A stretch of DNA of 64,000 bases from contig NZ_JAPZVN010000002.1 of NCBI RefSeq assembly GCF_027533845.1, positions 372,001 to 436,000 of the forward strand, in the 5' to 3' direction. The position numbers and the translations under genes were made by a program. Under the pieces are notes generated by a model. The model searched no databases. It saw nothing but the letters and a program-made list of their open reading frames with translations, and had not been told where the DNA came from. This stretch comes from Streptomyces sp. RPT161 (GTDB taxonomy: Bacteria; Actinomycetota; Actinomycetes; Streptomycetales; Streptomycetaceae). Below are positions 35,046 through 50,377 of this stretch, in pieces (the first letter of the stretch is position 1; each line of letters begins with the position of its first letter).

Positions 35046-35219
35046 AACTGATGTGGTGGAGCGGCCACCTCAGGTGTTCGTTCGAGCTGCCGCCGTGAGC
35101 AGCGCGGATGCCGTCGTTGGTTGTCGTCATTGGTCATCTTTGGGTGCCGTCGGACGGCCCAGGGACGGCCCGGCCGAAACTCCGTGCCCGTTGTCAGTGG
35201 CTGCTCCTAAGGTGCAGCT

Positions 35220-36209
35220 ATGCATAAGGGGGCCATCGACCGCGAAGCGGTGCTCAAGACGCTGGACGAGTACGACCGGATGGGGCGCGAGGCGTTCCTG
35301 GCTGCATACGGCTACGGAGAGGCTCGGTCCTACCTGCTCGTCCACGAGGGCAAGGAATACGACTCCAAGGCCGTGGCGGGCGTGGCGCACCGACACGTAC
35401 ACGGCAGAGCGCTCAAGCCGGACGAGTTCAGCGGAGGCCGAGACCACGCAGCCAGGTGGCTCAGGGATTTGGGCTTCCAGGTGAAGTCCGTACGTAACCC
35501 CGACTGGGCCCGTGACGAGTTGATCCTCGCTTGCGCCCTGGTCGCCAAGAACGACTGGCGAGGACTCGACGCGGGCGACCTCAGGGTGGTGGAGCTGTCC
35601 CGGCTTCTACAGCTCATGCCCGTCCACGCTCAGGCGGAGCGCAACGAGACCTTCCGCAACCCCAATGGCGTTGCGCGCAAGACGTTCGACATCGCCACTC
35701 GGCATCCCGACTACCGCGGCAGGCCCACCAACGGGGGCGCGTTGGACCGGGTAGTCCTGCAAGACTTCCTCGACCGTCCCGCGGAGATGGAGAACTCCGC
35801 CCGCCTCCTCCGTGAGGGCATCGCCTCTGGTGAACTGACGGCCACTGCGCCCGTGAGCGACGATGAGATGGACGACTACAGTGCGCCGGAGGGGCGGCTT
35901 CTCCTGCGGAAGCACGTTGCTCGCGAGCGAAACAGAGGGCTCCGTAAACGGAAAATTGACGCAGTCCTCAAGCAAGGGGGGACCCTCGCCTGTGAAGCAT
36001 GCGGGTTCGACTTTGAGCGGCAGTACGGGGAGCGCGGTGCGGGCTACATCGAATGCCACCACGTAGTGCCGCTCCATGAAGCGGGTGAGGGTCGGACGAA
36101 GCTCGCGGACCTTGCCCTCATCTGCGCGAACTGCCACCGCATGATCCATCGACAGGCGCCGTGGCCGACGCCGAAGCAGTTGCGGGAAGTAATCGAAGCG
36201 CGGCGATAA
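35220..36209 (+). CDS. HNH endonuclease with sulfur-binding-like domain (ScoMcrA-like type IV restriction)
   Basis: A 329-aa protein with three parts. The N-terminus (about 1-85; VLKTLDEYDRMGREAFLAAYGYG, SYLLVHEGKEYDSKAVAGVAH) looks like the ScoMcrA head domain. The middle (about 90-190; LILACALVAKNDWR, VVELSRLLQLMP, ETFRNPNGVARK) resembles the phosphorothioate-DNA-binding SBD. The C-terminus is an HNH nuclease with CEACGFDF, ECHHVVPLHE and LICANCHRMIH. There is no SRA domain. It would cut incoming DNA bearing sulfur modification. It is the first gene inside attL and AT-richer than the chromosome. Domain assignments are from memory of the family. Confidence 0.82.
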   Translation: MHKGAIDREAVLKTLDEYDRMGREAFLAAYGYGEARSYLLVHEGKEYDSKAVAGVAHRHVHGRALKPDEFSGGRDHAARWLRDLGFQVKSVRNPDWARDELILACALVAKNDWRGLDAGDLRVVELSRLLQLMPVHAQAERNETFRNPNGVARKTFDIATRHPDYRGRPTNGGALDRVVLQDFLDRPAEMENSARLLREGIASGELTATAPVSDDEMDDYSAPEGRLLLRKHVARERNRGLRKRKIDAVLKQGGTLACEACGFDFERQYGERGAGYIECHHVVPLHEAGEGRTKLADLALICANCHRMIHRQAPWPTPKQLREVIEARR

Positions 36210-36287
36210 GAGCCGCAGAAACGTCACACGCTGGTTTTTTGGGCGACAGGCCCCGGCGCTGCCAGGGGCCTGCCGCGAGTGTTCTGG

Positions 36288-36983
36288 TCACGCCAAAGCG
36301 TCGGCTACTTCGCTCATGCTTGACGTGATCGCGTCCGCGCCAGCGGCGCGGAGTGCCTCGTGCTTGTGGGGTTTGTTAGCGAAGCCGATGGCCTTCGTGC
36401 GGGCGGCGTGGGCAGCCTCGATGTCCGTCACAGAATCACCGAGCAGCGCACAATCTTCGGCACGCACGCCGAGCGCTTGAACCGCCCGGCGCACCGAATA
36501 AGGGTGGGGCTTCATGCGTTCCGGCTGATGCTCGGGGCGCCCCACGATCACGTGGATATGAGAAAGCAACCCATGTCGGTCGAGAAATGCCCGCGCGCAT
36601 TGCTCCGAGTTGTTGCTCACGATGGCTACGCCACGGCCGGAAGCATAAGCCGTCTGAATCGCGCTGCTGGCTCCGCTGGTCGGATCCCCAGCTACCGCTA
36701 CGGCCTCTATCTCCCTCTCCTGAAGTGTGCGTTCGGTAGCCAGCACCAGCCCCCTGCCGCCTTGCTGTGACAGCCTGAGAATCTCCAGAGGGTCCTCGAT
36801 TCCCTCGGCCTTCGCACCGAGCGTCGGGTCATACTCGGCCACGGTCTGGCTCAACTCACGGGCGACCAACGTTGCCGGTAGGCCACGGAACACGTGGCAG
36901 ATGGGTCCGTCGAAGTCGAACAGTACCCCTGACGACGAGGTAAGTGCCGACGCCAGGCTGTTAGTGCCCGTATCAGTGCCCAT
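36288..36983 (-). CDS. HAD family phosphatase, cotranscribed with the GntR gene
   Basis: A 231-aa haloacid dehalogenase-type hydrolase. Motif I is LFDFDGPI (Asp nucleophile), motif II VAIVSNNS, motif III Lys in RMKPHPYSV and motif IV LLGDSVTDIEAA. It resembles phosphoglycolate-phosphatase-like members, with unknown substrate. ATG 36983 overlaps the end of the GntR gene by 11 bp, indicating an operon. Its role in the element is unknown. Confidence 0.88.
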   Translation of the reverse strand: MGTDTGTNSLASALTSSSGVLFDFDGPICHVFRGLPATLVARELSQTVAEYDPTLGAKAEGIEDPLEILRLSQQGGRGLVLATERTLQEREIEAVAVAGDPTSGASSAIQTAYASGRGVAIVSNNSEQCARAFLDRHGLLSHIHVIVGRPEHQPERMKPHPYSVRRAVQALGVRAEDCALLGDSVTDIEAAHAARTKAIGFANKPHKHEALRAAGADAITSSMSEVADALA

Positions 36984-37839
36984 CAGGGTCGTAATCCCTT
37001 CCGATGGAGTTCCATACGCTGTCGAACCACATCTGAGCCTGTTCGACTTGTTGTGCACCGCTTGATGGATCCTGGTCGTTTACCGAGTAGTGAAACAGGG
37101 TTGCGTCTACTCCAAGCAGGTCGAAGAAATCTACGGTTTCGCCCTGAATGCTGGCCTTGTTGGGGCGCACCGGATAGTACCCGAAGAACGCGTCTTGCTT
37201 GTTGATGACGTATAGCTTGAAGAACTGACTCCCGCTGTGAACTCGGGCCTGAACTTGCGTTTCCTTAACCAGGCCGAGGTGGCCAAGCTCATTTACGGAA
37301 TTCATAACTCCGCGAATTGAGCTTGCCGTGATTTCGCGGGCCCGAGTTCGTAGGCGAGGGTCATCTTCGCAGTCCGCCCGGAGTACCGGGACTGCCTGCG
37401 GAACAGACATGTCAGGGACGAGAATCCGAACGTTGACGCTCGCGGGAGTGAGCCGCCCTACTCGGATCTTGTCGAGTGGCTCCTGCAGCGCACCACGAAG
37501 GGTTTCGCTGGAAAAGCCAGCAAAGTCGATGGACACGTGCTCCTCAGAGAACGCCTGCTCCACGTAGGGCCTGAGACCGGCAGGCCGCTCTGTCCGGTTA
37601 CGCACGAACACGCCGCTGCCCTTGCGGGACACGACGAGCCCTTCGTCTTCAAGGTCACGTAGCGCCCGCTGAATGGTGGCCCTGGCAAATCCATACAGCT
37701 GGGTGAGCTCCTTCTGCGATGGCAGCTTGTCTCCGGGCGCCAGCTTCCGGGTGCGGATCGCCGCACTGAGGCTGCTTGCCACCTGCTCGTACGGCGGCCG
37801 GTCGTCGTCGGGGTCCAGTGGCTCAGGCAGGAAGGTCAT
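36973..37839 (-). CDS. GntR family regulator of the element (KorSA-like position)
   Basis: The winged-helix domain (about residues 1-80; PPYEQVASSLSAAIRTRKLAPGDKLPSQKEL, FARATIQRALRDLEDEGLV, GSGVFV) is followed by a C-terminal domain of about 200 residues that is not a typical UTRA. It occupies the place of korSA-type repressors in pSAM2-like elements. It is divergent from the transfer/replication genes, with candidate operators in between. ATG 37839 gives 288 aa. GTG 37881 is possible. Neither has a strong ribosome site. Confidence 0.88.
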   Translation of the reverse strand: MTFLPEPLDPDDDRPPYEQVASSLSAAIRTRKLAPGDKLPSQKELTQLYGFARATIQRALRDLEDEGLVVSRKGSGVFVRNRTERPAGLRPYVEQAFSEEHVSIDFAGFSSETLRGALQEPLDKIRVGRLTPASVNVRILVPDMSVPQAVPVLRADCEDDPRLRTRAREITASSIRGVMNSVNELGHLGLVKETQVQARVHSGSQFFKLYVINKQDAFFGYYPVRPNKASIQGETVDFFDLLGVDATLFHYSVNDQDPSSGAQQVEQAQMWFDSVWNSIGRDYDPDGH

Positions 37840-37893
37840 GGCTTCGATGCTACGCGGCGAACCCCCAATCAGGACAGTCACCTCAGTCAGGCG

Positions 37894-37923
37894 TTGACAT
37901 GGCTAGTCACGTCGTCCTACATT
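37894..37923 (+). promoter_or_regulatory. Strong vegetative promoter for the transfer/replication operon
   Basis: TTGACA (37894-37899) and TACATT (37918-37923) are 18 bp apart, an unusually good housekeeping-type promoter for this genome. It points right, away from the GntR gene and toward the DUF6284 to rep gene chain. Confidence 0.75.
37900..37909. promoter_or_regulatory. Candidate GntR operator O1
   Basis: TGGCTAGTCA lies between the -35 and -10 boxes. A second copy with one change (TGGCTAGCCA) starts exactly 40 bp later. CTAG-centred dyads are typical for GntR-type repressors. Confidence 0.65.
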
Positions 37924-37937
37924 CTTCTCGTGGCCGA

Positions 37938-37951
37938 CCTGGCTAGCCAGG
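37938..37951. promoter_or_regulatory. Candidate GntR operator O2, perfect palindrome
   Basis: CCTGGCTAGCCAGG is a 14-bp perfect palindrome just downstream of the -10 box, near the expected transcript start. It contains TGGCTAGCCA, matching O1. Confidence 0.65.
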
Positions 37952-38409
37952 GCAGTCACCAGAGAAACGCTGCACGTCAGAGCGGTCTTTACGGCTGCTC
38001 CCATGCACGGGGCGGGGACGCTGCAATCCCGCTAAAGGCCAGGTGGAACAGGGCTTCGGCCCGTACTGGCGAGGTGGCCCGGTGACCGCGAGCAACGGCC
38101 GGAGAGTGGGGACTCGGTCCCCCTTGCAGTGCAACTCCCAGTGAATCGACAGCAGAAGGGCGCTTCTGGTGCTCCAACGACATTGATGGGCGCCGCCGTG
38201 GTCAACCACATGGCGGCGCCTCCTGACATCGCAGCGGCTAGGGCTGCTGCCGGTTGCCTCCTCCGCCCGTCCGGTTCCGTGCACTGCGCGGGGGCCGTAC
38301 GGGCGGAGTTGTGGGGAGCCGGATGTACCGACTTCAACGGCGCGCGGCCCCGGTGTTGCACCACCGGGGCCGCTGTTTGGGGCCGTTCCTGGTGAAGGGA
38401 GCACGACCC
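37952..38409 (+). other. Long structured leader of the transfer/replication operon
   Basis: About 460 bp between the promoter and the first gene with no convincing coding frame. It holds two strong hairpins. One is at 38189-38220 (GGCGCCGCC arm with an inner GTGG/CCAC stem and TCAA loop). The other is the terminator-like stem at 38345-38372. It could be an attenuator, a regulatory RNA or an origin-related region. Confidence 0.55.
38345..38372 (+). terminator. Terminator-like hairpin in the leader
   Basis: Perfect 11-bp arms CGGCCCCGGTG and CACCGGGGCCG with a 6-nt loop, followed by CTGTTT. It ends 37 bp before the DUF6284 start, so it may attenuate the operon. Confidence 0.6.
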
Positions 38410-38679
38410 GTGAGGGACATCGGTGCACTTCAGGCGGTTGTTACCGCCGATGAGTTCGGCCGCGAGCCGTCGGCCGCGGAGCTGGACACGATCGAGCGTG
38501 AGATGCCCGTCATCCTGGCGGAAGTCGATCTGCTCGACGCGCAGATCACCACCTTGGACCGCACGCCGACCGAGGTGGATGCGCGGCGTATCCGCCGGGC
38601 GCGTAACCGGGTGCTGGCCGCCCGGCGAGACCTGGCCAACCGTACGGGCGGCGCGAGCCTGCCGGGAGGTGCGGCGTGA
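38410..38679 (+). CDS. DUF6284-like small element protein
   Basis: An 89-aa protein, alpha-helical and charged (EFGREPSAAELDTIEREMPVI, RRIRRARNRVLAARR). It matches my memory of DUF6284, which is typically the first gene of AICE transfer operons. GTG start behind AAGGGAG. Function unknown. It is coupled by GTGA to the next gene. Confidence 0.75.
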   Translation: MRDIGALQAVVTADEFGREPSAAELDTIEREMPVILAEVDLLDAQITTLDRTPTEVDARRIRRARNRVLAARRDLANRTGGASLPGGAA

Positions 38680-38948
38680 AGTGCAGCGCACGTCTGACCA
38701 ACAGCTTCATCGGCGAGTGGGAGCTGTACGTCGTCACCGACGGTACGAGCCTGGACTGGCCCGAGCACTCCTTTGAGCGGACCGCACCAGTGCCCACCTT
38801 GCAGGAACGGACGGATGCACTGGCCCTGCTCGGCTACTGCGCCGCGGACGACGCCGTGTGGGAGTGGCAGGAGATTCCCAGCGGCGTCATGGACCGTGTG
38901 GAGCTGCTGGCGTCGTTGGACGTTCAGCCGATGGGCGGTGCGGCATGA
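38676..38948 (+). CDS. DUF6303-like small element protein
   Basis: A 90-aa protein with ARLTNSFIGEWELYVV, DWPEHSFERTAPVPT and VWEWQEIP blocks, a pattern I recall as DUF6303. Its GTG overlaps the previous stop and its own stop overlaps the next ATG, so three genes are translationally coupled. Function unknown. Confidence 0.75.
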   Translation: MKCSARLTNSFIGEWELYVVTDGTSLDWPEHSFERTAPVPTLQERTDALALLGYCAADDAVWEWQEIPSGVMDRVELLASLDVQPMGGAA

Positions 38949-39808
38949 ACGCCAAGACCGTGCTCCCCGCCGTGGCGATGACGGGCGTGTCCATGGTGCT
39001 CACCCTGGCCATGGTCGTGATGTGGCTGGGCGCGGCAGTGCCGTGGCCGGTCGCCCTGGTCGTCGGTCTGGGGATCGATGGCGGGTGGCTGGCCACTCTC
39101 GCTTACGAGCGCCGTCTGGCCGCGCAGGGTGACCACAACCGTGCCGTAACCGGTGTCGGCTGGTGCTTCGGCCTGGTCGCGGCCGGTGTCTTGGTCGCGC
39201 ACGCGCTCACCGCCGGGCACTCCGGCGGCGCGTGGCTGGCCGTCGCGTGGATGCCGATCGCGGCTAAGGCCCTGTGGCTGGTGCACGGGCTGTGGGAGCG
39301 CACCGCGCTCACCCCGGCGGCGCTGGGCGTCATCCGGGGTATCCAGCAGGAGGCCCGGGACGAAGCGGCCGTGGCCCGCGCCCGACTCCGGGCGGAGGCG
39401 GCCACCGAGGAGACCCGGCTTGCGGCCGTGACGGGGGCCGGTGCCCGCGTCGCACGCGTCCAGGCCAAGACCGCTCAAACGCTTTCGAAGGCGTGGTCGA
39501 CGCTGGAGACGGCACGGGCGGGCGAGGAGACCGCCAGGGCGCTGACCAGCGTGACGGCCCGCGTCACGCCCGGTGTCGCACACCGTTGGGAACTGCCGGT
39601 CTGGGGCCCCACGCAGCCGGTTGCGCCGCTGACCCTGGGGACCGGGCCAACGCTCACCGACGAGGCGCTGGACGCGCTGGTTGACGAGATCCGTCACAGC
39701 GAGTCGCCCGCCTTGTCCTACCGGGAGATGGCCACGCGGTTCCGCGCGGCCGGTCACTCCGCCTCTGAGGTCCGTCTTCGGGCTGCGTGGAAGCGCGTGG
39801 CGGTGTGA
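38945..39808 (+). CDS. SpdA/DUF2637-like membrane transfer protein
   Basis: A 287-aa protein. Four hydrophobic segments lie in the first 115 residues (LPAVAMTGVSMVLTLAMVVMWLG; WPVALVVGLGIDGGWLATLAY; VTGVGWCFGLVAAGVLVAHAL; AWLAVAWMPIAAKALWLVHGLW). A long Ala/Arg helical stretch follows, then a C-terminal part resembling a winged helix (DALVDEIRHSESPALSYREMATRFRAAGHSASEVRLRAAW). This is the usual Spd-type protein of AICEs, thought to act in intramycelial plasmid spread. Confidence 0.78.
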   Translation: MNAKTVLPAVAMTGVSMVLTLAMVVMWLGAAVPWPVALVVGLGIDGGWLATLAYERRLAAQGDHNRAVTGVGWCFGLVAAGVLVAHALTAGHSGGAWLAVAWMPIAAKALWLVHGLWERTALTPAALGVIRGIQQEARDEAAVARARLRAEAATEETRLAAVTGAGARVARVQAKTAQTLSKAWSTLETARAGEETARALTSVTARVTPGVAHRWELPVWGPTQPVAPLTLGTGPTLTDEALDALVDEIRHSESPALSYREMATRFRAAGHSASEVRLRAAWKRVAV

Positions 39809-40146
39809 TGGGGGCGCTGCCGGTATTCCGGTGGCGCCTGGCCCCGGATGGATACGCCACGCGCCGACAACTGCGGGTGCGTGATCTGCGCCCCGGAGGT
39901 CAGGACGTGGCGGCCGAGTTGCAGCGTCCGCGCCGCGGTCGCGGGCCGCTGGTCGCCTACCTCTACCGCATCGACCAGGCCAAACCGGTGCGGCCCATGA
40001 CAGACGCGAAGTGGGCGGCGCTGGCCAAAGCCAACGCCGCCCGCCGTACCTGCCCGCGGTGCCGCCGTGATGCCGGATACGTCATTCCCACCTCGATCGG
40101 GATGTGCGTGTCCTGCGCCGACCCCGAAGAACAGCGCGCCGCCTGA
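39808..40146 (+). CDS. RRQRL-motif zinc-binding protein of the element
   Basis: A 112-aa protein. ATRRQLRVRDLRPGGQ is the RRQ motif region, and VAYLYRIDQAKPVRPMT follows. The C-terminal zinc ribbon has CPRC (about residue 85) and CVSC (about 103). Its ATG overlaps the previous stop (TGATG). Such proteins recur in Streptomyces integrative elements, function unknown. Confidence 0.8.
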   Translation: MGALPVFRWRLAPDGYATRRQLRVRDLRPGGQDVAAELQRPRRGRGPLVAYLYRIDQAKPVRPMTDAKWAALAKANAARRTCPRCRRDAGYVIPTSIGMCVSCADPEEQRAA

Positions 40147-40175
40147 ACACCCCACCCACGCCAAGGAGTTCTGTC

Positions 40176-40379
40176 ATGCCCAGCAACAACCACGCCGTGA
40201 CGTACGAGTGGAGCGCCGAACTGACTATCAGCGGTGAGCCGATGTGGGCCACCGGCACGTCCAGCGGGCCGGAGGGCTACAGCGTCGATGACGCCTACCG
40301 CGACGCCTGCGACGCCATGGCTCAGCTGGGGCTTGGGCACTTCCCCGGCAGTTTCGTCATTCGGCCCGTCCAGGGCTGA
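40176..40379 (+). CDS. Small element protein, unknown
   Basis: A 67-aa acidic protein (YEWSAELTISGEPMWATGTSSG, DDAYRDACDAMAQLG). ATG 40176 is behind a clear AAGGAG. No family recognised. Its place just before tra suggests a role in transfer or its control. Confidence 0.7.
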   Translation: MPSNNHAVTYEWSAELTISGEPMWATGTSSGPEGYSVDDAYRDACDAMAQLGLGHFPGSFVIRPVQG

Positions 40380-40460
40380 TCTCAGCGCGGGGCCCGGTCT
40401 CAACCGACCAAAGCAGCGGCCGGGCCCCGCTCCCTCCAAACATCTGTGGAAGGAAGCTCA

Positions 40461-42668
40461 GTGAACCACGAGGATGAGAACGAACTGTTCAAGCGACTCG
40501 AAGCCGACCTGGCCACCGAGCCGGGCGCTGAGGTAGTCGACCTGGACAAGGCACGGTCGGCCCGGACCGAGTCGCCCGACTCCATCACCGACTCGACAGC
40601 CGACTCCGAGCCGGGTCGGTCGGGTGGCGAGTCGGATGCCCCGGCCGATCGCGTGCTGGTCGACCAGCCGACCGCCCCGGCCGGTCCGGGCTATCTGGGT
40701 CGGCTGCTCAGCGCGAAGCGCCGTGCGGTCGTCCCGGAGTGGCTGAAGTCCACGGCGGAGTTGAAGACCGCTACCGGCTGGGTGGCGCGCCACTACGCGC
40801 ACGTGGCCGGGTATCACGGGCTGCGTGCCCCGGTCTACGCCGCCCGCCTCACCCTGCAAGCACCCTCCGGCGCCGCCAAGTTCATCGGCGGCATGATGCG
40901 GTGGATGGCCGACCGTGAGGGCGACCCGGTCCGCGCCGCCGCCGTTCGCCGTGAGGACGCGGCCGAGTACCTGAAGCTGTCGCGGCAGCGGGATGGTCGG
41001 GTCCGACTGCGGACCCTGGTCGCGGTGCTGGCCCTGTTCGTCGGAGTCGGGGCGGCGCTGGCCATCTACGTACTCGCCCCCGGCTGGCTTCAGGCCCTCT
41101 CGGTGAGCGCGGTGGTCATGGCGCTGGGCTACGCGGGCCGTAAGGCCGATGACCCGGTCATCCACCGGGCGGTGGAGCTGCCCAAGGCGACCAAGCTCAC
41201 CTCTGACATCGTGCTGCGCGCGCTCGGTGCGCTGGGCATCCCGGCCATCAACTCCGCGCAGGCCAAAGGGCGGGACGGGTTCGAGTTCACCGCCCCCATC
41301 ACCCGCGACGGTCCCGGTTGGCGGGCGGAGGGCAACCTCCCGTACGGCGTGACCGTCACCGACATCATCGAACGGCGCGAACGTCTCGCGTCCGGTCTGC
41401 GGCGCCCGCTGGGCTGTGTGTGGCCAGAGGCGGTTCCGGATGAGCACACCGGGCACCTGGTGCTGTGGGTGGGGGATCAGGACATGTCCCGCGCCAAGCA
41501 ACCGGCGTGGCCGCTGCTGAAGTCCGGCAGCGTGGACCTGTTCAAGCCGGTCGCTTACGGCACCGACCAGCGCGGGCGCTGGGTCGAAGCGACGCTGATG
41601 TACATCGCGGGCGTCATCGGCGCGATCCCGCGCATGGGCAAGACGTTCCTGCTCCGCCTGCTGCTGCTGATCGCGGCGCTGGACCCGCGGGCGGAGCTGC
41701 ACACCTACGACATGAAGGGCACCGGCGATCTGGACCCGGTCGGCAACGCCGTCTCCCACCGGCATGCCGCAGGGGACGATGACGAGTCGATCGTGTACTG
41801 CCTGAACGACTGCCGGGCGCTGCGCGAGGAGTTGCGGCGGCGCACGAAGGTGATTCGCTCGCTGCCGCGGGACATCTGCCCGGAGTCGAAGGTGACCAGC
41901 GCCCTTGCAGACAAGCGTTCGCTGGGGCTGCACCCGATCGTGTTCGCGGTGGATGAGTGCCAAGTGCTCTTCGAGCACGCCGAGCACGGCAAGGAGTTCG
42001 AGGAGATCATCACCGACCTGGTCAAGCGGGGACCTGCGACCGGCATCGTGGTCCTGCTGGCCACGCAGCGCCCCGATGCCAAGGCGCTGCCCACGGGCAT
42101 TTCCGCGAACGCGTCGGCCCGCTGGTGCCTGAAGGTCATGGGTCAGTTGGAAAACGACATGGTGCTGGGCACCTCCGCGTACAAGCGCGGGGTGCGGGCG
42201 ACCATGTTCGCCTGGGCCGACAAGGGCATTCACTACTTCGTCGGTGAAGGCTCCGACGCCCGGATCGTGCGCTCCATCTACGTCGACGGCCGCGACGCCG
42301 AAGCCATCGGCGCCCGCGCCCGCAAGATGCGCGAGACCGCTGGAACCCTGTCCGGGCATGCGCTTGGCGAAGCGCCGGAGGTCACGGCCGTGGCGTACGA
42401 CCTGCTCGCCGACATCCTTGCCGTCATCCCCGCCGACGAGCCGAAGGTGTGGTCCGAGACCGTCGTTGCCCGGCTGGCCGATCTGCGGCCGGAGGTCTAC
42501 GACGGATGGGACCCCGAAGCGCTCGCCACGGCGCTCAAGCCACACCTGATCTCCACCATCCAGGTCGGTCGCCGGGTGAACGGCAAGGTCGTCAACCGGC
42601 GCGGTGTCGACCGCTCCCACATCACTGCTGCGGTTGCGGAGCGTGACGGAAAGCGGGACGCGGGCTGA
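40461..42668 (+). CDS. tra: FtsK/SpoIIIE-like conjugal DNA translocase (TraB/TraSA)
   Basis: The key conjugation protein, which pumps double-stranded DNA between mycelial compartments. It has 735 aa. The N-terminus is acidic and Ser/Asp-rich. Hydrophobic segments lie at about residues 180-215. The ATPase has Walker A GAIPRMGKT (about 388-396) and Walker B HPIVFAVDECQ, then LLATQRPDAKALPTGI. The C-terminal part (ALATALKPHLISTIQVGRRVNGKVVNRRGVDRSHI) is a candidate winged helix for clt binding. GTG start behind GGAAGGAAG. Candidate clt repeats follow directly. Confidence 0.92.
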   Translation: MNHEDENELFKRLEADLATEPGAEVVDLDKARSARTESPDSITDSTADSEPGRSGGESDAPADRVLVDQPTAPAGPGYLGRLLSAKRRAVVPEWLKSTAELKTATGWVARHYAHVAGYHGLRAPVYAARLTLQAPSGAAKFIGGMMRWMADREGDPVRAAAVRREDAAEYLKLSRQRDGRVRLRTLVAVLALFVGVGAALAIYVLAPGWLQALSVSAVVMALGYAGRKADDPVIHRAVELPKATKLTSDIVLRALGALGIPAINSAQAKGRDGFEFTAPITRDGPGWRAEGNLPYGVTVTDIIERRERLASGLRRPLGCVWPEAVPDEHTGHLVLWVGDQDMSRAKQPAWPLLKSGSVDLFKPVAYGTDQRGRWVEATLMYIAGVIGAIPRMGKTFLLRLLLLIAALDPRAELHTYDMKGTGDLDPVGNAVSHRHAAGDDDESIVYCLNDCRALREELRRRTKVIRSLPRDICPESKVTSALADKRSLGLHPIVFAVDECQVLFEHAEHGKEFEEIITDLVKRGPATGIVVLLATQRPDAKALPTGISANASARWCLKVMGQLENDMVLGTSAYKRGVRATMFAWADKGIHYFVGEGSDARIVRSIYVDGRDAEAIGARARKMRETAGTLSGHALGEAPEVTAVAYDLLADILAVIPADEPKVWSETVVARLADLRPEVYDGWDPEALATALKPHLISTIQVGRRVNGKVVNRRGVDRSHITAAVAERDGKRDAG

Positions 42669-42674
42669 CCGTCC

Positions 42675-42766
42675 GGGGCCGCTAGCGCTAGCGGCACACC
42701 CCGCTAACGTTAGCGGCCCCGCTAGCGCCCCAAACCCGCTCTGATCAGGCCGCTAGCGGATAGCGG
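42675..42766. repeat. GCTAGCGG repeat cluster after tra, candidate clt transfer locus
   Basis: GCTAGCG occurs at 42681, 42687, 42721 and 42752. CCGCTAACGTTAGCGG (42701-42716) is a perfect 16-bp palindrome of the variant form, CCGCTAGCGG lies at 42750-42759, and ATAGCGG follows. In Streptomyces plasmids the TraB-binding clt with 8-bp repeats often lies just downstream of traB. Confidence 0.65.
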
Positions 42767-42810
42767 CCCACCTGTGCAAACCCCTTGAAACCTGCCTGGG
42801 AGGGCCCGTC

Positions 42811-43062
42811 ATGACCCCTGCCCTGCTCGCTATCACACTGCTCATCGGCATAACACTCTGTTACGCAGCTGTGTGTGCTGCCTCGCCGTTCGGCAACTGC
42901 CGCAAGTGCCGCGGCTTCGGCTTCGCGACCACCACCGACCGCAAAGGCCGCCTCAAGCGCGGCAAGCCGTGCCGCCGCTGCGACGCCACCGGCAAGCGCA
43001 TCCGCATAGGCCGCTGGCTGTTCAACCGCGCCGCCCGCATCCACCACGACGGCACCCGCTGA
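42811..43062 (+). CDS. Small membrane-anchored zinc-motif protein
   Basis: An 83-aa protein. An N-terminal hydrophobic helix (ALLAITLLIGITLCYAAVCA) is followed by CRKCRGFGF and CRRCDATGKRI, two CxxC motifs like half a DnaJ zinc finger. The C-terminus is basic. GGGAGGG precedes the ATG. Small proteins of this kind are frequent in AICE spread regions. Confidence 0.75.
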   Translation: MTPALLAITLLIGITLCYAAVCAASPFGNCRKCRGFGFATTTDRKGRLKRGKPCRRCDATGKRIRIGRWLFNRAARIHHDGTR

Positions 43063-43099
43063 ACCCCCTGCTCCCGCCACCGATCGGAGCACCCCGCCA

Positions 43100-43294
43100 A
43101 TGACAGTCACCTTCTCCGCCGTGGTCCTGCTGGGCATCGCGGCGTTCCTCGCCCTGAAGATGCGCTCCGCCAAGGCCGGGGCCGCCGTCGTGCTGTTCCT
43201 CTTCGGCTTCTTCGCCGCCCACAGCAGCGCCGCCGGAGCCATCAACGGCATGTGCCAGTCCTTCGCCCACTTCCTCGCCCACCTGCGCGCCTAA
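43100..43294 (+). CDS. Small hydrophobic spread-type protein
   Basis: A 64-aa protein with two hydrophobic helices (FSAVVLLGIAAFLAL and AGAAVVLFLFGFFAAHSSAAG). It lies in a run of small membrane genes after tra, the usual place of spd genes. GGAG lies about 10 nt upstream. Function inferred from position only. Confidence 0.65.
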   Translation: MTVTFSAVVLLGIAAFLALKMRSAKAGAAVVLFLFGFFAAHSSAAGAINGMCQSFAHFLAHLRA

Positions 43295-43308
43295 CCAGGA
43301 GGCTCACC

Positions 43309-43776
43309 GTGAACGAACCCACCGCCCACCGCCGCCCTACCGGGCCCGACACAACGGCCTTACAGGTCCACCGCCCCGCCCCGATCACGCCCGCGCACCC
43401 CGCGCTGCTCGCGTCCGTCCAGCCCGCCAACATCCCGGCCGTGGCGAGCGTCGTCCTGCCGGACGGACGAGTCGTCACCGGCTACGCCATCGAACCCGCC
43501 AAGCCCGAACCCGTCGCGGTCAAGCCCATGGTCTCCCGCGCGGCGGTGAACGTCGCCCTCGGCGGCATCGGGTTCGGCGCCATCTGCGGCGGGCTGTTCT
43601 TGCTGACTGCGTTCCTCGCCGCCCTCACCGCCTTCATCCACGCGCTCATCATCCTCACCGCCGTCATCTTCGGCGGCTGGGTCGCCGTCCAGGTCTTCGG
43701 CCACCACCCCGGCGGCAGCGGGACGACGGTTCACATCCGCAAAGCCGTCATCAAGCGCAACCACTTCCACGGCTGA
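43309..43776 (+). CDS. SpdB-like membrane protein
   Basis: A 155-aa protein. A Pro-rich cytoplasmic N-terminus of about 70 residues is followed by two hydrophobic helices (VNVALGGIGFGAICGGLFLL; FIHALIILTAVIFGGWVAVQVF) and a basic tail (IRKAVIKRNHFHG). GTG start behind AGGAGG. A spread function is likely from context. Confidence 0.68.
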   Translation: MNEPTAHRRPTGPDTTALQVHRPAPITPAHPALLASVQPANIPAVASVVLPDGRVVTGYAIEPAKPEPVAVKPMVSRAAVNVALGGIGFGAICGGLFLLTAFLAALTAFIHALIILTAVIFGGWVAVQVFGHHPGGSGTTVHIRKAVIKRNHFHG

Positions 43777-43785
43777 AAGGAAGCC

Positions 43786-44394
43786 ATGTTCGAGATCCGC
43801 GTCATCTGCGACCCGATCGACACCGACCGTATCGTCGCCGCGCTGGACAGCACGTTCGCGACCGGCACGGTGGCGACTGTCTGCCCCACCCGCGACGGCA
43901 AGCGGCACCGCCTGTACGTCACCGCTGACCACCGCCCCGAGCCGGGATCGTGGCCGACGCCGGAGCAGGCATACGCGAACGCGCCGAGCATCGTCCAGGA
44001 GATCGGCTGGACCGCCCGCACCCTCGCCGAGACCGAGTGCTTCACGGAGTTGGACCGCGAGTTCTACCTGCGCAAGGCCGCACTGCTGGACCGCATCGCG
44101 CTCCTGGACGAGCCCGACGAACCCGGCGACGCCACCGAGGCAGCCGAAGCCACGGCCTTGGTTCTGCTCGACACCGACAAGAGCGCGGGCGGCCGGTACC
44201 ACGGCCGGGGGTACTGGCCCGAACACCCCGTGGCCGAGGCCAACCCCCGCGGCTACGTCCGTCAGGAATACGCCCAGTGGTGGGCGAGGGAAGGCCGTGA
44301 CCAGCACCGCGCGGCCCGGCTCGCAGCAGGCCAGTGCCCCAACTGCGCCTGGCCTCAGCACCAGTGCAACTGCGCTGACCACCCCGACGCCTGA
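43786..44394 (+). CDS. Element protein of unknown function with C-terminal Cys motif
   Basis: A 202-aa protein. The start MFEIRVICDPIDTDRIVAALDSTF looks like a ferredoxin-type fold segment. The middle is acidic, and the end CPNCAWPQHQCNC may bind zinc. AAAGGAAG precedes the ATG. It lies between the spread and replication modules. Confidence 0.68.
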   Translation: MFEIRVICDPIDTDRIVAALDSTFATGTVATVCPTRDGKRHRLYVTADHRPEPGSWPTPEQAYANAPSIVQEIGWTARTLAETECFTELDREFYLRKAALLDRIALLDEPDEPGDATEAAEATALVLLDTDKSAGGRYHGRGYWPEHPVAEANPRGYVRQEYAQWWAREGRDQHRAARLAAGQCPNCAWPQHQCNCADHPDA

Positions 44395-44482
44395 CTACGC
44401 CCGGGACGGCCGCCACGTCTCGCCAAAGAACCGCGGCCGTCCCGGCTCCCCAGAACTCATCACAGAACTGGAGGTCTCCAGC

Positions 44483-45388
44483 ATGACCCATGCTCCCCGT
44501 TCCGCGCTGCTCCGCGCGGCGCTGGACGCTGCCGACCAAGGGTGGCCTGTCATCCCGCTACGCCCCGGCGGGAAAGCCCCCGCCCTCCACGGTGAGCGCC
44601 ACTGCCCCGGAACCGGCGAGTGCACCGACGGGCACCGCACGTTCGAGCAGCGAGCCACCCTCGCCCCCGAGCGCATCGAACGCTGCTGGGCGACTGGCCC
44701 GTTCAACGTCGGCATCGCCACCGGCCCCGCCGGGCTGCTGGTCATCGACCTCGACACACTCAAGCCCAAGGACACAAAGGGCACGCCTGACGGCGTGACG
44801 AGCTTCTTGGCGCTCTGCGAGCGCGCCGGACAGCCCCTCCCCACCACCCGCCGCATCCGGACTCCCAGCGGTGGACAGCACCTGTACTTCACCGCCCCGC
44901 CCGGCGTCAGACTGCACAACACCGCGGGGACCCTCGCCCCGAAGATCGACACCCGAGCGTGGGGCGGGCAAGTCGTCGCACCCGGCAGCACCACGCCATA
45001 CGGCCCGTACACGGTCCTGGACGACTCGCCCGTTGCAGACCTACCCGAATGGCTCCAACACGCCCTGACGGCCCCACAGAGGCCAGCGGCGGCCCCGGTC
45101 TTGCCGATGCCCACCCGCAGTCGCAGCCGGTACGCCGCCGTCGTCCTTGACCGCGAGGCAGCCGCGGTCGCCGCTACAGCCGAGGGCGGCCGTAACGCCG
45201 AACTACTGCGCGCCGTACGGGCGGTGGGCCGGTTCGTGGCCTGGCACGACCTCGACCGCGCCACCGTAGAAGCGGCTTTTCAGGCCGCGGGCGAGACGGC
45301 GGGACTGCCAGCGTCCGAGTGCCGCGCCACGATCCGCAGCGCCCTGGACTGGTCCATCCGCACCGCCCGGCCCCGGGAGACGGCATGA
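44483..45388 (+). CDS. Bifunctional DNA primase/polymerase (RepPP-type replication protein)
   Basis: An archaeo-eukaryotic-primase-type protein of 301 aa for element replication. It has LDAADQGWPVIPLRPGGKAP at the N-terminus. FNVGIATGPAGLLVIDLDTLK (about residues 72-92) contains the catalytic DxD in VIDLD. RIRTPSGGQHLYF and DTRAWGGQVVAPGS are the other prim-pol motifs. A helical C-terminus of about 100 residues follows (EGGRNAELLRAVRAVGRFV). GGAGG lies upstream. With the helicase gene two genes on it makes up the prim-pol class of AICE replication module. Confidence 0.9.
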   Translation: MTHAPRSALLRAALDAADQGWPVIPLRPGGKAPALHGERHCPGTGECTDGHRTFEQRATLAPERIERCWATGPFNVGIATGPAGLLVIDLDTLKPKDTKGTPDGVTSFLALCERAGQPLPTTRRIRTPSGGQHLYFTAPPGVRLHNTAGTLAPKIDTRAWGGQVVAPGSTTPYGPYTVLDDSPVADLPEWLQHALTAPQRPAAAPVLPMPTRSRSRYAAVVLDREAAAVAATAEGGRNAELLRAVRAVGRFVAWHDLDRATVEAAFQAAGETAGLPASECRATIRSALDWSIRTARPRETA

Positions 45389-45762
45389 CCACCAGCCCTT
45401 CCCGCCCCGCCCTGAAAAGCATCCCCACCTGCGACCGGCCCAGCACCGCCGAACCGACCGGCGGTACCCCCGGCCATAGCGCGCTGAAGAACGCCGCCCG
45501 TCAGGGCGTCCGATCTGCTCTGCGTCCTGACCCGCACCCGGCCACCCCGCCCCGCGGGGACGGACGCACCCCGGTCGCCTGGCTCCACGTCACCGCACCG
45601 TCCGACCGGCAAGCGATCCCGTCGGCCACCTCGTGGTGCCAGTGCGGCCGGTACCGCACCGCCACCGGCCGCACCAACGTGCTCCGGCTGGTCGAAGCCC
45701 ACACCGCCCACCGCGAGCACTGCCCACTCCGCAACCCCACCGAGAGGAGGAACGCCGCATGA
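45385..45762 (+). CDS. Small Cys/His protein between prim-pol and helicase
   Basis: A 125-aa protein with a disordered N-terminal half. The C-terminal half is WCQCGRYRTATGRTNVLRLVEAHTAHREHC, a possible zinc site (C-x-C, H, H, C). It overlaps both neighbours by ATGA, so it is probably part of the replication module. No family recognised. Confidence 0.72.
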   Translation: MTTSPSRPALKSIPTCDRPSTAEPTGGTPGHSALKNAARQGVRSALRPDPHPATPPRGDGRTPVAWLHVTAPSDRQAIPSATSWCQCGRYRTATGRTNVLRLVEAHTAHREHCPLRNPTERRNAA

Positions 45763-47168
45763 CCGAGCCGGAAGAACTACCCGCCCCGTCCAACCCCATG
45801 GCCGTCGCGCGACGACTCCTCCCCGACTGGCAGACCCCCGATGGGAACCTGCTGTGCCGACGCTGGCGCGGCTCATGGATGCGCTGGACCGGTACCTGCT
45901 GGCGCGAGCTGGACGACCAGCAGATGCGAGCCTCGCTCTACAAGCGGCTGGAGCACGCCACCTACACCGCAGGCACCGACAAGGACGGACAGCCGGACAT
46001 CCGAGACTGGGCCCCCACGAAGCAGAAGATCAGCAACCTGCTAGACGCGCTGGGCGCCATCACCCTGCTACCCACAGACGTTGACGCCCCGGCCTGGATC
46101 GACCAGCAGGCAGACGAGCATGACCACAGCCCGATCGTGGCCTGCCGTAACGGGCTGCTGCGCATCCGGGACCGGGCCCTGCTCCCGCACGGCCCAGGAT
46201 TCTTCAACCTCGTCTCCGTGCCCTACGCCTACGACCCACAAGCCACCGCCCCCACCTGGGAACGCTTCCTGCGGCAGATCTGGCCCGACGACCAGCCCGC
46301 CATCGACGCGTTGCAGGAGTGGTTCGGCTACGTCCTATCCGGCCGCACCGACCAGCAAAAGATCCTGCTCATCAAAGGTCCGTCACGGTCCGGGAAGGGC
46401 ACCATCGCCCGCGTCCTGAAAGAACTGGTCGGACGCGAGAACCTCGCCGGACCCACCCTGGCCGGACTCGGCAGCAACTTCGGCTTGTCGTCCCTGCTGG
46501 GCAAGCCGCTCGCGGTCATCTCCGACGCGCGCCTGTCCGGCAACGACGGCGGACAGGTCGTGGAACGGCTACTGACCATCTCCGGTGAAGACACCATCGA
46601 CATCGACCGCAAGTACCGCGACCCGTGGACAGGCAAGCTGCCCACCCGGCTGATGATCCTCACCAACGAGCTGCCGAACTTCGGCGACTCCTCCGGGGTG
46701 ATAGCCCGCCGGTTCGTCGTGCTCAACATGACCGTCTCCTGGCTCGGCAAGGAAGACACCGGCTTGACCGACAAGTTGGCAGCGCAGATGCCCGGCATCC
46801 TCAACTGGGCACTGGACGGCCTGGCCCGGCTGGAGCACACCGGCCGGATCACCGAACCACCCTCCAGCCGGGAAGCGGTCATCACCATGCAAGACACCGC
46901 CTCCCCGACCAGCGCGTTCGTCCGCGAACGCTGCACCACCGGCCCCACATGCAGCGTGCCCGTGGACACGCTGTGGGCCATCTGGCGGGAGTGGGCCGAG
47001 GACAACGGCGTGCGCGCCGTCGGCACGAAGCAGATGCTCGGCCGCAACCTGCAATCCGTCGTCCCCCAGCTCCGCCGGACACGGCCCCGAGACCAGTACG
47101 GCCGGCAGGTGCCCACCTACAACGGGATCACCCTCAACCAGTCCGAACCACATTTGTCTGAGCCGTGA
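45759..47168 (+). CDS. P4-type (D5-like) replicative helicase/primase
   Basis: An SF3-type helicase of 469 aa. An N-terminal D5-like region (about 30-190) contains the SPIVACRNGLLRI motif. Walker A is LLIKGPSRSGKGT (about 206-218), Walker B is AVISDARL, and ILTNELPNF is the sensor Asn motif C. A C-terminal winged helix (about 390-440) ends the protein. It should unwind the excised element at its origin. It is coupled to the small protein upstream. Confidence 0.9.
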   Translation: MTEPEELPAPSNPMAVARRLLPDWQTPDGNLLCRRWRGSWMRWTGTCWRELDDQQMRASLYKRLEHATYTAGTDKDGQPDIRDWAPTKQKISNLLDALGAITLLPTDVDAPAWIDQQADEHDHSPIVACRNGLLRIRDRALLPHGPGFFNLVSVPYAYDPQATAPTWERFLRQIWPDDQPAIDALQEWFGYVLSGRTDQQKILLIKGPSRSGKGTIARVLKELVGRENLAGPTLAGLGSNFGLSSLLGKPLAVISDARLSGNDGGQVVERLLTISGEDTIDIDRKYRDPWTGKLPTRLMILTNELPNFGDSSGVIARRFVVLNMTVSWLGKEDTGLTDKLAAQMPGILNWALDGLARLEHTGRITEPPSSREAVITMQDTASPTSAFVRERCTTGPTCSVPVDTLWAIWREWAEDNGVRAVGTKQMLGRNLQSVVPQLRRTRPRDQYGRQVPTYNGITLNQSEPHLSEP

Positions 47169-47217
47169 CTCAGCGCGACTCAATGCCCTGCCGACCCGCT
47201 CTGAGTCGCGATGAGTC
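47167..47217. repeat. Paired GACTCA inverted repeat after the helicase gene
   Basis: GACTCA occurs at 47167 and 47177 and its complement TGAGTC at 47202 and 47212. The two 16-bp arms match at 15 of 16 positions and are 19 bp apart. Each half-site pair is spaced exactly 10 bp. Candidate replication origin, Xis/Int arm site or terminator. Confidence 0.7.
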
Positions 47218-47256
47218 GCTTCTCAGAGCAATGTGGCTCCAACTCTGGAGGACGCA

Positions 47257-47502
47257 GTGAAGCCGCCCCGTGTCCCGGAGGAGACCAATCCCAGAGCCAC
47301 CCTCCGCGGTGGACTCCCGGACCGGTACCTCACCCCTGACGACATAGCCGAACTATTCGACGTGCCCAAAGAGACCGTCTACCAGTGGCGTAAGAAGCGC
47401 ACCGGTCCGCCCGGATTCCGCATCGGCAAGCACATCCGCTACGACCCCGTCGCCGTAAGTAACTGGACCACCAAACGTATGGCCGAGGACGCCGCCGTCT
47501 AG
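47257..47502 (+). CDS. xis: Excisionase (MerR-like helix-turn-helix)
   Basis: An 81-aa DNA-binding protein. YLTPDDIAELFDVPKETVYQWRKKRTGPPGFRIGKHIRYDPVAV is the AlpA/Xis-type winged helix of the helix_turn_helix_17 kind. The GTG start at 47257 has GGAGG ending 5 nt upstream. ATG 47233 is less likely. It directs excision together with the integrase. Confidence 0.88.
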   Translation: MKPPRVPEETNPRATLRGGLPDRYLTPDDIAELFDVPKETVYQWRKKRTGPPGFRIGKHIRYDPVAVSNWTTKRMAEDAAV

Positions 47503-47518
47503 CACCTGCCGTCATCAA

Positions 47519-47556
47519 GGGCCAGGTGCAGCCAAGTCGCTGCACCTGGCCCTTTT
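47519..47556 (+). terminator. Intrinsic terminator between xis and int
   Basis: GGGCCAGGTGCAG (47519-47531) pairs perfectly with CTGCACCTGGCCC (47540-47552), loop 8 nt, followed by TTTT. The best intrinsic terminator in the window. Confidence 0.9.
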
Positions 47557-47587
47557 CGTGCTCACACTGCCCCTGAGAGGAACTGCT

Positions 47588-48856
47588 GTGGCAGGCCACA
47601 TCCAAGACCGTTGGTTCAAGACCGAGACCGGACCCGATGGCAAGACCCGGCGGGTCAAGACTGACCGATACGGCACCGGCATGCGCTACCGCGCCCGGTA
47701 CGTGGCGCCGGACGGGAGTGAACGCAGCCGCTCATTCCCTGACAAGCAAAAGCGCCTCGCCGAAGCCTGGCTGACGCAGATTGCCGCCGACATGACCCGC
47801 GGCCAATACGTTGACCCGTCTGCGGGGAAGGTGACGTTCCAGCAATTCGCCACACAGTGGCTCGCGTCGCAGACGACGGACCCCGCCACCATCGTGGCCA
47901 TGGAGCTCCGGCTTAGGCTGCACGCCTTCCCGCACATCGGGTCGCGTTCACTGAGCGCTTTCCAGCCTGGTCACATCCGCACCTGGGCCCGGGTGCTGAA
48001 GGACTCCGGCATGGCGTCCTCGTACCAGCGCGTCATCTTCGCGAACGTCTCCGCCGTGTTCGGGGCGGCTATGGATGACGGCATCATTGCCCGAAACCCG
48101 TGCCGGGCTGGCTCAGTAAGAGCTCCGAAGCTGGACGCCCGGAAGCTCAAGCCATGGACCCGTGAGCGGGTGCTTGCTGTCCAAGACGGGCTGCCGGAGC
48201 AATACGCCACGACTGTGGACGTGGGCGCCGGTTGCGGACTTCGCCAAGGCGAGATCTTCGGACTCGCCGTGGATGAAGTCGACTTCCTCGCGGGCGTCGT
48301 CCACGTCGTCCGGCAGGTCAAGATGGTTGGCTCGCACTTGGTGTTCGCCCCGCCCAAGGGCGGGAAGCTGCGTGACGTGCCGCTGCCCGACGTGGTGTCG
48401 TACGCGCTTGCCGCACACATCACCAAGCGTCCGCCCATCGATGTCACGCTGCCGTGGAAGACGCCGGACGGGCCGCCGGTCACCGCCACGCTGATTTTCT
48501 ACTCGCGCGAGCGTAAGGCGCTGAACCGGAACTACTTCAATATGTATCTGTGGAAGCCCGCATTGGTCTCCGCAGGCGTCATCCCGCAGCGTCAGCCGGG
48601 GGAGCGGTTCAAGCAATCGCGCGAGCACGGCATGCACGCGCTGCGGCACTACTACGCGTCGGTGCTGCTGGACGCGGGGGAGAACATCAAGGCCCTGGCC
48701 GAGTACCTCGGTCACTCGGATCCCGGCTTCACGCTGCGCACGTACACGCACCTGATGCCCAACAGCCAGGACCGCGCCCGCAAGGCTATCGACGCCGCGT
48801 TCGGCGTAGCGGTGGGAGACGACGGCGATGGCGGCGAGGCGATGGCCGCCGCCTGA
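47588..48856 (+). CDS. int: Tyrosine recombinase, site-specific integrase
   Basis: A 422-aa phage-type integrase. The N-terminal arm-binding region is RYRARYVAPDGSERSRSFPDKQKRLAEAWL, and a SAM-like core-binding domain follows (about 70-165). The catalytic residues are Arg in CGLRQGEIFGL, His/Arg in HALRHYYAS, His in LGHSDPGF and the nucleophile Tyr in LRTYTHLM. GTG 47588 is behind GAGAGGAA. It ends 111 bp before the attR core inside the glnA 3' end, the usual place for the integrase of such elements. Confidence 0.95.
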   Translation: MAGHIQDRWFKTETGPDGKTRRVKTDRYGTGMRYRARYVAPDGSERSRSFPDKQKRLAEAWLTQIAADMTRGQYVDPSAGKVTFQQFATQWLASQTTDPATIVAMELRLRLHAFPHIGSRSLSAFQPGHIRTWARVLKDSGMASSYQRVIFANVSAVFGAAMDDGIIARNPCRAGSVRAPKLDARKLKPWTRERVLAVQDGLPEQYATTVDVGAGCGLRQGEIFGLAVDEVDFLAGVVHVVRQVKMVGSHLVFAPPKGGKLRDVPLPDVVSYALAAHITKRPPIDVTLPWKTPDGPPVTATLIFYSRERKALNRNYFNMYLWKPALVSAGVIPQRQPGERFKQSREHGMHALRHYYASVLLDAGENIKALAEYLGHSDPGFTLRTYTHLMPNSQDRARKAIDAAFGVAVGDDGDGGEAMAAA

Positions 48857-48871
48857 CTCCAGCCGCAGAAA

Positions 48872-48921
48872 GGGCCGTCGGCCGTGCCCTTCCGGTAGTG
48901 GAAGGACACGGCCGACGGCCC
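48872..48921. terminator. Bidirectional terminator between int and glnA
   Basis: Perfect 15-bp arms GGGCCGTCGGCCGTG (48872-48886) and CACGGCCGACGGCCC (48907-48921), with an inner CCTTCC/GGAAGG stem. It serves both the plus-strand int and the minus-strand glnA. It belongs to the element, so it replaces the terminator that glnA lost on integration. Confidence 0.88.
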
Positions 48922-48966
48922 ACAGACGGCCCAGGGGAGCGAAAACCCGCTCTGACCTGCGGCGAT

Positions 48967-48980
48967 CTTAGATGTCGAAG
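48967..48980. repeat. glnA: attR core inside the glnA 3' end
   Basis: CTTAGATGTCGAAG, identical to 35032-35045. It encodes the last three residues and stop of GlnA, so integration leaves the protein unchanged. Confidence 0.9.
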
Positions 48981-50377
48981 TACAGCTCGAACTCGTGCGG
49001 GTGCGGGCGCAGTTGCATCGGGGCGATTTCGTTGGTGCGCTTGTAGTCGATCCAGGTTTCGATCAGGTCCGAGGTGAACACGCCGCCCTGGAGCAGGTAT
49101 TCGTGGTCGGCCTCCAGGGCGTCCAGGACGGCCGGGAGGGAGGTCGGGACCTGGGGGACGTTGGCGTGCTCCTCGGGGGCCAGCTCGTAGAGGTCCTTGT
49201 CGACCGGCTCGGCGGGCTCGATCTTGTTCTTGATGCCGTCGAGACCGGCCAGCAGCAGGGCCGAGAAGGCCAGGTACGGGTTGCTGGACGGGTCGGGGGC
49301 GCGGAACTCGATGCGCTTCGCCTTGGGGTTGGCACCGGTGATCGGGATGCGGATGGCGGCGGAGCGGTTGCGCTGCGAGTAGACCAGGTTGACCGGGGCC
49401 TCGAAGCCCGGGACCAGGCGGTGGTAGGAGTTCACCGTCGGGTTGGTGAAGGCCAGCAGCGACGGGGCGTGCTTGAGGATGCCACCGATGTAGTAGCGGG
49501 CGGTGTCCGACAGGCCCGCGTAGCCCTGCTCGTCGTAGAACAGGGGCTCGCCCGCGTTCCACAGCGACTGGTGGCAGTGCATGCCCGAGCCGTTGTCGCC
49601 GAAGATCGGCTTCGGCATGAAGGTCGCGGTCTTGCCGTTGCGCCAGGCCACGTTCTTGACGATGTACTTGAACAGCATCAGGTCGTCGGCGGCGGCCAGC
49701 AGCGTGTTGAACTTGTAGTTGATCTCCGCCTGGCCCGCGGTGCCCACCTCGTGGTGCTGGCGCTCGACCTTCAGGCCCGCCTTGTTCAGCTCCAGCGAGA
49801 TCTCGGCGCGCAGGTCGGCGAAGTGGTCCACCGGCGGGGCCGGGAAGTAGCCGCCCTTGTAGCGGACCTTGTAGCCGCGGTTGTCCTCCAGCGCACCGGT
49901 GTTCCAGGCGCCCGCCTCGGAGTCGATGTGGTAGAAGGACTCGTTCGACTTGGTCTCGAAGCGCACGCTGTCGAAGACGTAGAACTCCGCCTCCGGGCCG
50001 AAGTACGCGGTGTCCGCGATACCGGTGGAGGCCAGGTATGCCTCGGCCTTCTTCGCCACGTTCCGCGGGTCACGGCTGTACTGCTCGCCGGTGATCGGGT
50101 CGTGGATGAAGAAGTTGATGTTGAGGGTCTTGTCCCGGCGGAACGGGTCGACCCGGGCCGTGGACAGGTCGGCGCGCAGCGCCATGTCGGACTCGTGGAT
50201 GGCCTGGAAGCCGCGGATCGAGGAGCCGTCGAACATCAGGTCCTCGGCGGGGTCGAACGCCTCCACCGGCACCGTGAAGTGCTGCATGATGCCGGGCAGG
50301 TCGCAGAACCGGACATCGACGAACTTGACGTCCTCGTCCCGCAGGAACTTCTTGGCCTCGTCGGCGTTCTGGAACAT
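48968..50377 (-). CDS. glnA: Glutamine synthetase type I (GSI-beta)
   Basis: Main ammonium-assimilating enzyme of 469 aa, a dodecamer. It has the N-terminal [16 protein letters not shown] and [21 protein letters not shown] carries metal Glu residues, [16 protein letters not shown] follows, and [12 protein letters not shown] and NRSAAIRIP complete the active site. The adenylylation Tyr lies in DLYELAPEE, the target of GlnE. The start at 50377 is behind GAGGAGGAG. The 3' end is the attR of the inserted element and is intact. A GlnR box lies upstream. Confidence 0.97.

Follow-up and report, generated by a model that had tools for sequence, protein, structure and literature searches.

In Streptomyces and its relatives, TraB-driven transfer of double-stranded DNA is a main route of conjugation. 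The clt loci known from such systems are described mainly by direct repeats.

The TraB of the pSVH1 type is an FtsK-like protein whose C-terminal winged helix reads 8-bp repeats at clt (PMC4170104, PMC3583192; here and below, what is said of described systems refers to the excerpted text of the papers). The locus that we describe resembles this system in having several 8-bp motifs and an FtsK-like TraB, for which a winged helix is predicted. It differs from it in that the motif is another one, the motifs form inverted pairs with a fixed 22-bp spacing, the TraB C-terminus has no credible Pfam match, and the covariation between protein and DNA is strongest in the wing. In pWTY27, clt lies directly behind tra and is footprinted by the Tra protein (PMC3583192). 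Like the pWTY27 clt, our array is non-coding DNA directly behind tra with direct and inverted repeats, but the pWTY27 repeats are TGACACC and CCCGCCC and lie partly inside tra (PMC3583192). Another short repeated palindrome that is conserved among Streptomyces plasmids is the sps palindrome of the spdA genes. SpdA binds it, and its sequence (CGTCACGTGACG) hardly varies (PMC4170104), whereas the letters of our array change with TraB. Finally, the host element shares integrase, xis, Prim-Pol, FtsK-like tra, and att sites with SLP1 and other Prim-Pol AICEs, and differs from them in being inserted at the 3' end of glnA (PMC3218068).

The integrative element and the array behind tra

The window (the whole 64-kb stretch of DNA that was analysed) contains a 13.9-kb integrative element (35032-48980) bounded by two copies of TTAGATGTCGAAGT, an exact 14-bp direct repeat. 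The left att core lies at 35032-35045 and the right one at 48967-48980, both read on the plus strand. The right core is at the 3' end of glnA (glutamine synthetase, 48968-50476, minus strand), which serves the element as its attachment site. The empty insertion site is present in two genomes of the same genus. No tRNA gene that could serve as att was found in the 64-kb window, nor in 18 array loci without TraB that are discussed below. Those genes of the element for which we give positions are on the plus strand. The 740-residue product of tra (40446-42668) is an FtsK/TraB-like translocase with weak NCBIfam matches to plasmid_TraB and FtsK and a PDB sequence match to FtsK motors; a homologue is annotated as FtsK. 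ORF2 (42811-43062), 3' of the array, encodes an 83-residue CxxCxG protein. Pfam matches identify a replication module of Prim-Pol and a D5-like helicase (44297-47168) and, farther on, an excisionase (HTH_17) and a tyrosine integrase (47233-48856); the element also encodes a GntR regulator. The element has the features of an AICE: it carries an integrase, xis, a gene for replication and an FtsK-like tra between att repeats, and relatives have the empty site.

The array consists of eight half-sites NNTAGCGG within 90 bp 3' of tra. Two 16-bp palindromes, R1 (CCGCTAGCGCTAGCGG, 42679-42694) and R2 (CCGCTAACGTTAGCGG, 42701-42716), have their centres 22 bp apart. They are followed by a single half-site on the minus strand (R3, CCGCTAGCGC, 42719-42728), by a CTGATCAG palindrome (42741-42748) that is widely kept and also occurs behind a second TraB family, and by a looser pair (R4, GGCCGCTAGCGGATAGCGGCC, 42748-42768). 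The sequence-only reading had described four GCTAGCG copies and one 16-bp palindrome directly after a TraB-like gene. All of this is present: the four copies are on the plus strand at 42681, 42687, 42721, and 42752, the palindrome is R2, and the array is non-coding and adjoins the tra stop at 42668. What that reading lacked is that R1 is also a 16-bp palindrome, the 22-bp spacing from R1 to R2, and the CTGATCAG palindrome and R4, which take the array up to 42768. In many loci, inspection by eye also shows GCTATC or GCTAGC as a half-site at the start of ORF2 (42829-42834, within its first codons), where the encoded residue alternates between Ile and Ser.

Eight half-sites in 90 bp far exceeds chance. 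In 200 first-order Markov sequences of 64 kb each, half-sites of the form G[ACT]TAGC[GA]G never numbered more than two per 92 bp. The word GCTAGCGG occurs six times in the window, counting both strands, against 2.34 expected (six were reached in 4 of 100 shuffles), and five of the six copies are packed into 81 bp. Of the paired form GCTANNNNTAGC, the window has two copies (0.115 expected), and the array contains both. The array thus holds several copies of a 7-9 bp motif, as expected of a clt, and the recognised unit would be better given as NNTAGCNN in inverted pairs than as GCTAGCGG. Since TraB recognition repeats also occur in host chromosomes, the sequence-only reading had called for a count there. 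The 7.69-Mb host genome does contain 85 copies of GCTAGCGG and 37 of GTTAGCGG, but they are scattered, and no second array or clt-like cluster for the array's motif was found in it; GCTANCGNTAGC occurs three times, two of them in the array. Two papers (PMC3218068 and PMC6722414) discuss clt-like sites in chromosomes, and clusters have been reported for the pSVH1 TraB. The host genome differs in this respect, although chromosomal clusters are not required of every clt.

Array classes and the C-terminal domain of TraB

We gathered relatives of TraB by protein (144 of 394 genomes of the window's family match at 1e-60), with further TraB loci from named genomes (80) and from two plasmid-collection records. 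The paired array NNNCTANNNNTAGNNN-6-NNNCTANNNNTAGNNN lies behind the tra stop in 111 of 114 loci with a TraB match, with differing letters, and the gap between the R1 and R2 16-mers is 6 nt in 111 of 111 paired arrays (this set contains repeats; there are 101 unique TraB proteins). The three misses are a paralogue that is about 29% identical (L006) and two loci in which one arm is damaged (L111 and L113). By the sequence-only reading, absence of the repeats behind close tra homologues would have spoken against a clt; we found the opposite. A DNA pattern search that made no use of proteins found arrays in 25 of 394 genomes of the class, in 23 viral contigs, and in 115 of 394 genomes of the family. 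TraB adjoins the array in 22 of the 25 class-genome loci and in 19 of the 23 viral-contig loci; 12 of 48 pattern loci were dropped because they failed a strict ORF and domain test. As a control, the reversed pattern hit none of the class genomes; among the family matches listed, it gave four single hits. A scan of the viral contigs by protein patterns found no relative, but the DNA pattern did find some.

We named classes of arrays by their four core letters and counted them among the 101 unique TraB proteins. Class I (R2 ACGT) accounts for 54, class III (GACC/GGTC and similar) for 18, class IV (CCGG) for 15, class Ib (R2 GCGT) for 5, class II (TCGA) for 4, and class V (GCGC, with CTCTAG flanks) for 4; one array is of another class. 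The right half of R4 also differs between classes: 14 of 15 class IV elements have ATAGCAC there, whereas 51 of 54 class I elements have ATAGCGG. The sequence-only reading had called the repeat an uncharacterised specificity. We found no earlier description of this array, of the swaps described next, or of islands with several clt loci in the open-access literature (subscription papers mostly lie outside it), and a full-text search with the repeat strings returned no paper that by its title concerns actinomycete elements; the array is, however, one of several specificities. The papers that we searched give clt sites for few plasmids, while our sequence comparison locates the site behind well over 100 tra genes. 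Two smaller observations concern the classes. Behind two tra genes (L195 and L221), the arms are GCTTGCGCAAGC, in which the otherwise constant TAG has become AAG, R4 is altered as well, and L245 has a matching array. Also, locus lists inspected by eye gave no clear pattern of co-resident elements avoiding the same array class.

Near-identical elements have exchanged a cassette of about 400 bp that comprises the TraB C-terminus and the array. For example, L064, of class V, and L021, of class I, have 98% identity over motor residues 190-640 and 91% in ORF2, but only 51-63% in the two main parts of the C-terminal domain. The same pattern holds for L092/L034, L052/L021, and L076/L032, and over all of the swap pairs the motor is 97-98%, ORF2 82-95%, and the C-terminal domain 48-74% identical. 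A dip in DNA identity spans the tra stop (about −300 to +60 or +120), and identity recovers on both sides. The annotated coding sequence in the swapped tract is the TraB C-terminus, which makes this domain the obvious partner for the array. As the domain and the array move together, the swaps show coupling rather than contact, and because the two share one cassette, a switch on the motor tree does not independently prove contact either.

The swapped domain (42363-42665, plus strand) is predicted to be a winged helix. Its AlphaFold model (mean pLDDT of 82.8) has a recognition helix and a beta-hairpin wing, and its matches in fold libraries are mainly winged-helix proteins, with middling scores; FtsK gamma is not among the matches listed. 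Neither Pfam (no credible match) nor a sequence search against solved structures identified the domain. When TraB proteins are aligned by array class, each class has its own wing motif at the end of the protein. We predicted the class of each array from its nearest neighbour, leaving one out (n = 100; duplicates by TraB identity were removed, which reduced 111 loci to 101, and L002 was dropped). TraB residues 651-740 give an accuracy of 0.97. If pairs with at least 85% motor identity are excluded, the accuracy is 0.89 for residues 651-740, 0.80 for 631-720, and 0.47 for 601-690, as compared to 0.20-0.48 for segments that end before residue 640 and 0.28 for ORF2, which is about as near the array as the TraB C-terminus but on the opposite side. 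With exclusion at 78% identity the contrast is weaker (0.68 versus 0.35-0.53 for the segments and 0.39 for ORF2). By parsimony, the class changes 7 times on a tree of the C-terminal domain, against 16 times on one of the motor and 28 times on one of ORF2. Within the domain, the association with class is highest at wing residues 709-716 (V715, 0.90; V716; R709; R710). It drops towards the tra stop codon, although the stop is nearer the array, and at third codon positions it averages 0.04-0.09, with single values of up to 0.44. The letters of the array track the C-terminal winged helix of TraB and not the motor, ORF2, or silent codon positions. That TraB touches the array is our deduction from where this signal sits, namely in the wing. 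The likely partner residues can be named, and the natural swaps are ready-made tests of specificity.

One rule links single residues to single bases: a Trp insertion in the wing goes with a half-site whose first base is not G. It held in 131 of 132 unique loci before we noted it as a prediction, and it was written down, with two further rules, before new loci were collected. The test set was 60 more distant loci, of which 58 have at least one intact arm, 46 have at least two, and 40 pass the strict paired pattern; the two without an intact arm are L181, whose end is frameshifted, and L188. The rule held in 58 of 58 testable loci (25 without Trp and 33 with it). Over 186 unique loci (190 before duplicates by TraB identity were removed), one is discordant (L162). 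Among independent supported switches, 9 agree with the rule, none oppose it, and 1 shows no difference; a tree of the C-terminal domain built without its wing yields 3 supported pairs, and nearly all of their pairings agree. The other two written predictions failed in part. The association of R700 with GCGT, which was seen in 5 of 5 older loci, held in 0 of 2 new ones and is rejected. The association of an RT motif with CCGG is partial: among the new CCGG arrays, the motif covers 6 of 9. Another form of the wing, [IM]SRR, accompanies CCGG in 3 of these 9 loci and in 2 older ones.

A candidate clt and its rivals

We propose that the array is the clt gripped by TraB, that is, the motor's landing site for exporting the element; from the sequences and the structural model, we put the probability at roughly 0.85. 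This supports the candidate clt locus of the sequence-only reading, as the repeat letters follow the C-terminal domain of TraB and the array lies behind nearly all related tra genes. The recognition helix and above all the wing would read the 8-bp half-sites NNTAGCNN. Several TraB subunits would sit on the inverted pairs R1 and R2, on the same face of the DNA helix, with R3 and R4 as additional half-sites. A TraB hexamer may then assemble at R1-R2 and pump the excised double-stranded circle to the recipient. To change its specificity, an element would swap the domain and the sites jointly. We count in favour of a landing site that islands without tra also carry complete arrays, and against a clt that the pairs behind tra are inverted, known clt loci being described mainly by direct repeats.

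Could TraB bind the array for another purpose? The array sits in the leader of ORF2, and it might be an operator for the operon of ORF2 and the replication genes, with transfer being loaded elsewhere. We think this improbable: islands without tra have whole tandem arrays with neither TraB nor ORF2, ORF2 does not track the class of the array, and there is no match to a sigma-70-like promoter at the array. It is more doubtful still that the array is a replication origin or a partition site. Repeat arrays are typical of both, and the Prim-Pol module lies 3' of the array. Yet tra and ORF2 accompany the array in 111 of 111 loci, whereas homologues of Prim-Pol, D5, and the integrase were found in just 31, 15, and 27 of these loci as fetched (counts that are lowered by distances and contig ends), and single islands have several arrays of different kinds.

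The exchange of cassettes is real, and the C-terminus and the array might covary without touching, simply because they lie on one recombination tract. But then the signal within the tract should not be concentrated in the wing and recognition helix, be low at third codon positions, and fall towards the stop codon, nearer the array, nor should ORF2, on the other side, fail to follow; we give linkage alone the same very small chance as an origin. Smallest of all is the chance that the array works as RNA, with R1 and R2 forming the hairpin of an attenuator or terminator. In every class, most of R1 is complementary to R2 (mean of 0.93 of pairs), but the four core pairs of such a hairpin are intact in just 34 of 66 unique arrays, while R2's own core dyad is kept in 46. 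Searches for terminators gave no match and those against Rfam no credible one, and a hairpin offers no reason for covariation with the TraB wing.

Islands without tra and a second TraB family

Among the matches listed in the family search, we fetched 25 loci that were not beside a TraB already listed, which makes them a non-random sample. Ten have TraB and 15 do not: HMMs of the two TraB families found none in these 15 and did find both of 2 positive controls. Of the 15, 12 carry an integrase that is 57-62% identical to the window's. Six of these 12, which measure 7.5-9.8 kb, lie wholly between direct repeats, with an integrase and no TraB inside, as expected of satellites, and the islands examined have xis and primase- or helicase-like genes. 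L245 to L250 contain tandem clt-like arrays of several classes and of two TraB families beside xis and int (for example at 7560-9060 in L245 and 7700-8500 in L250). The other six loci (L258, L259, L261, L262, L263, and L266) have one to three kinds of array site, and L258, L259, L261, and L263 are flanked by direct repeats. Overall, GCTANNNNTAGC sites of more than one kind are present in 11 of the 12 loci, of which we count 10 as firm because L266 qualifies only via one distant stray site. As a control, we sorted the sites of 64 loci that have tra and span at least 13 kb; just 2 have more than one kind, both via single strays. Three arrays from the class search also have no TraB even within about 7 kb. 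Of these orphans, L236 and L238 are near transposases, and L237 is near a large serine recombinase and Mrr-like and HNH nucleases.

The host genome contains another TraB that is about 27% identical over the aligned part and has a different repeat cluster behind it. The arrays of its relatives have the form [A/G]GGGAG-NN-CTCCC and often include a palindrome like CTGATCAG. The core GGGAGNNCTCCC occurs somewhere in 27 of 30 loci of this second family, and 6 of the 64 first-family loci with tra have it too. L245 to L250 each have one or two stretches that match second-family arrays beside their own arrays. Also, four stretches of L250 (88, 143, 125, and 68 bp) align with DNA behind tra genes, four different ones from the two families, and L245 aligns over six stretches with DNA behind tra genes; thus, these islands string together clt-like loci with different addresses.

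Most simply, the islands would be satellites that collect docking sites and are exported by resident TraB pumps. Arrays without TraB fit such hitch-hiking but were not predicted. Integrative mobilizable elements similarly have an integrase and att sites and no transfer apparatus (PMC5704250); the islands differ in carrying several clt-like arrays for a pump of double-stranded DNA. Integrating elements without tra or rep are mentioned in PMC3218068. More broadly, we consider it likely that double-strand conjugation by TraB uses a readable and swappable address code, consisting of the winged helix and the clt cassette, and that islands of 7.5-9.8 kb without tra gather several complete clt loci that serve two TraB families (the richest islands have about four to six), which would let almost any resident TraB export them. 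If so, islands with several sites are satellites of TraB conjugation, which would explain the spread of genes without transfer machinery.

Two minor observations concern the repeats of other TraB proteins. The CTGATCAG-like palindrome is common to the arrays of both TraB families, though their repeats differ. In L239 (4080-4240), another TraB of the host genome is followed by GGGTAG/CTACCC and CGAAGTAG repeats, and a similar GGGTAG stretch can be seen by eye in L245.
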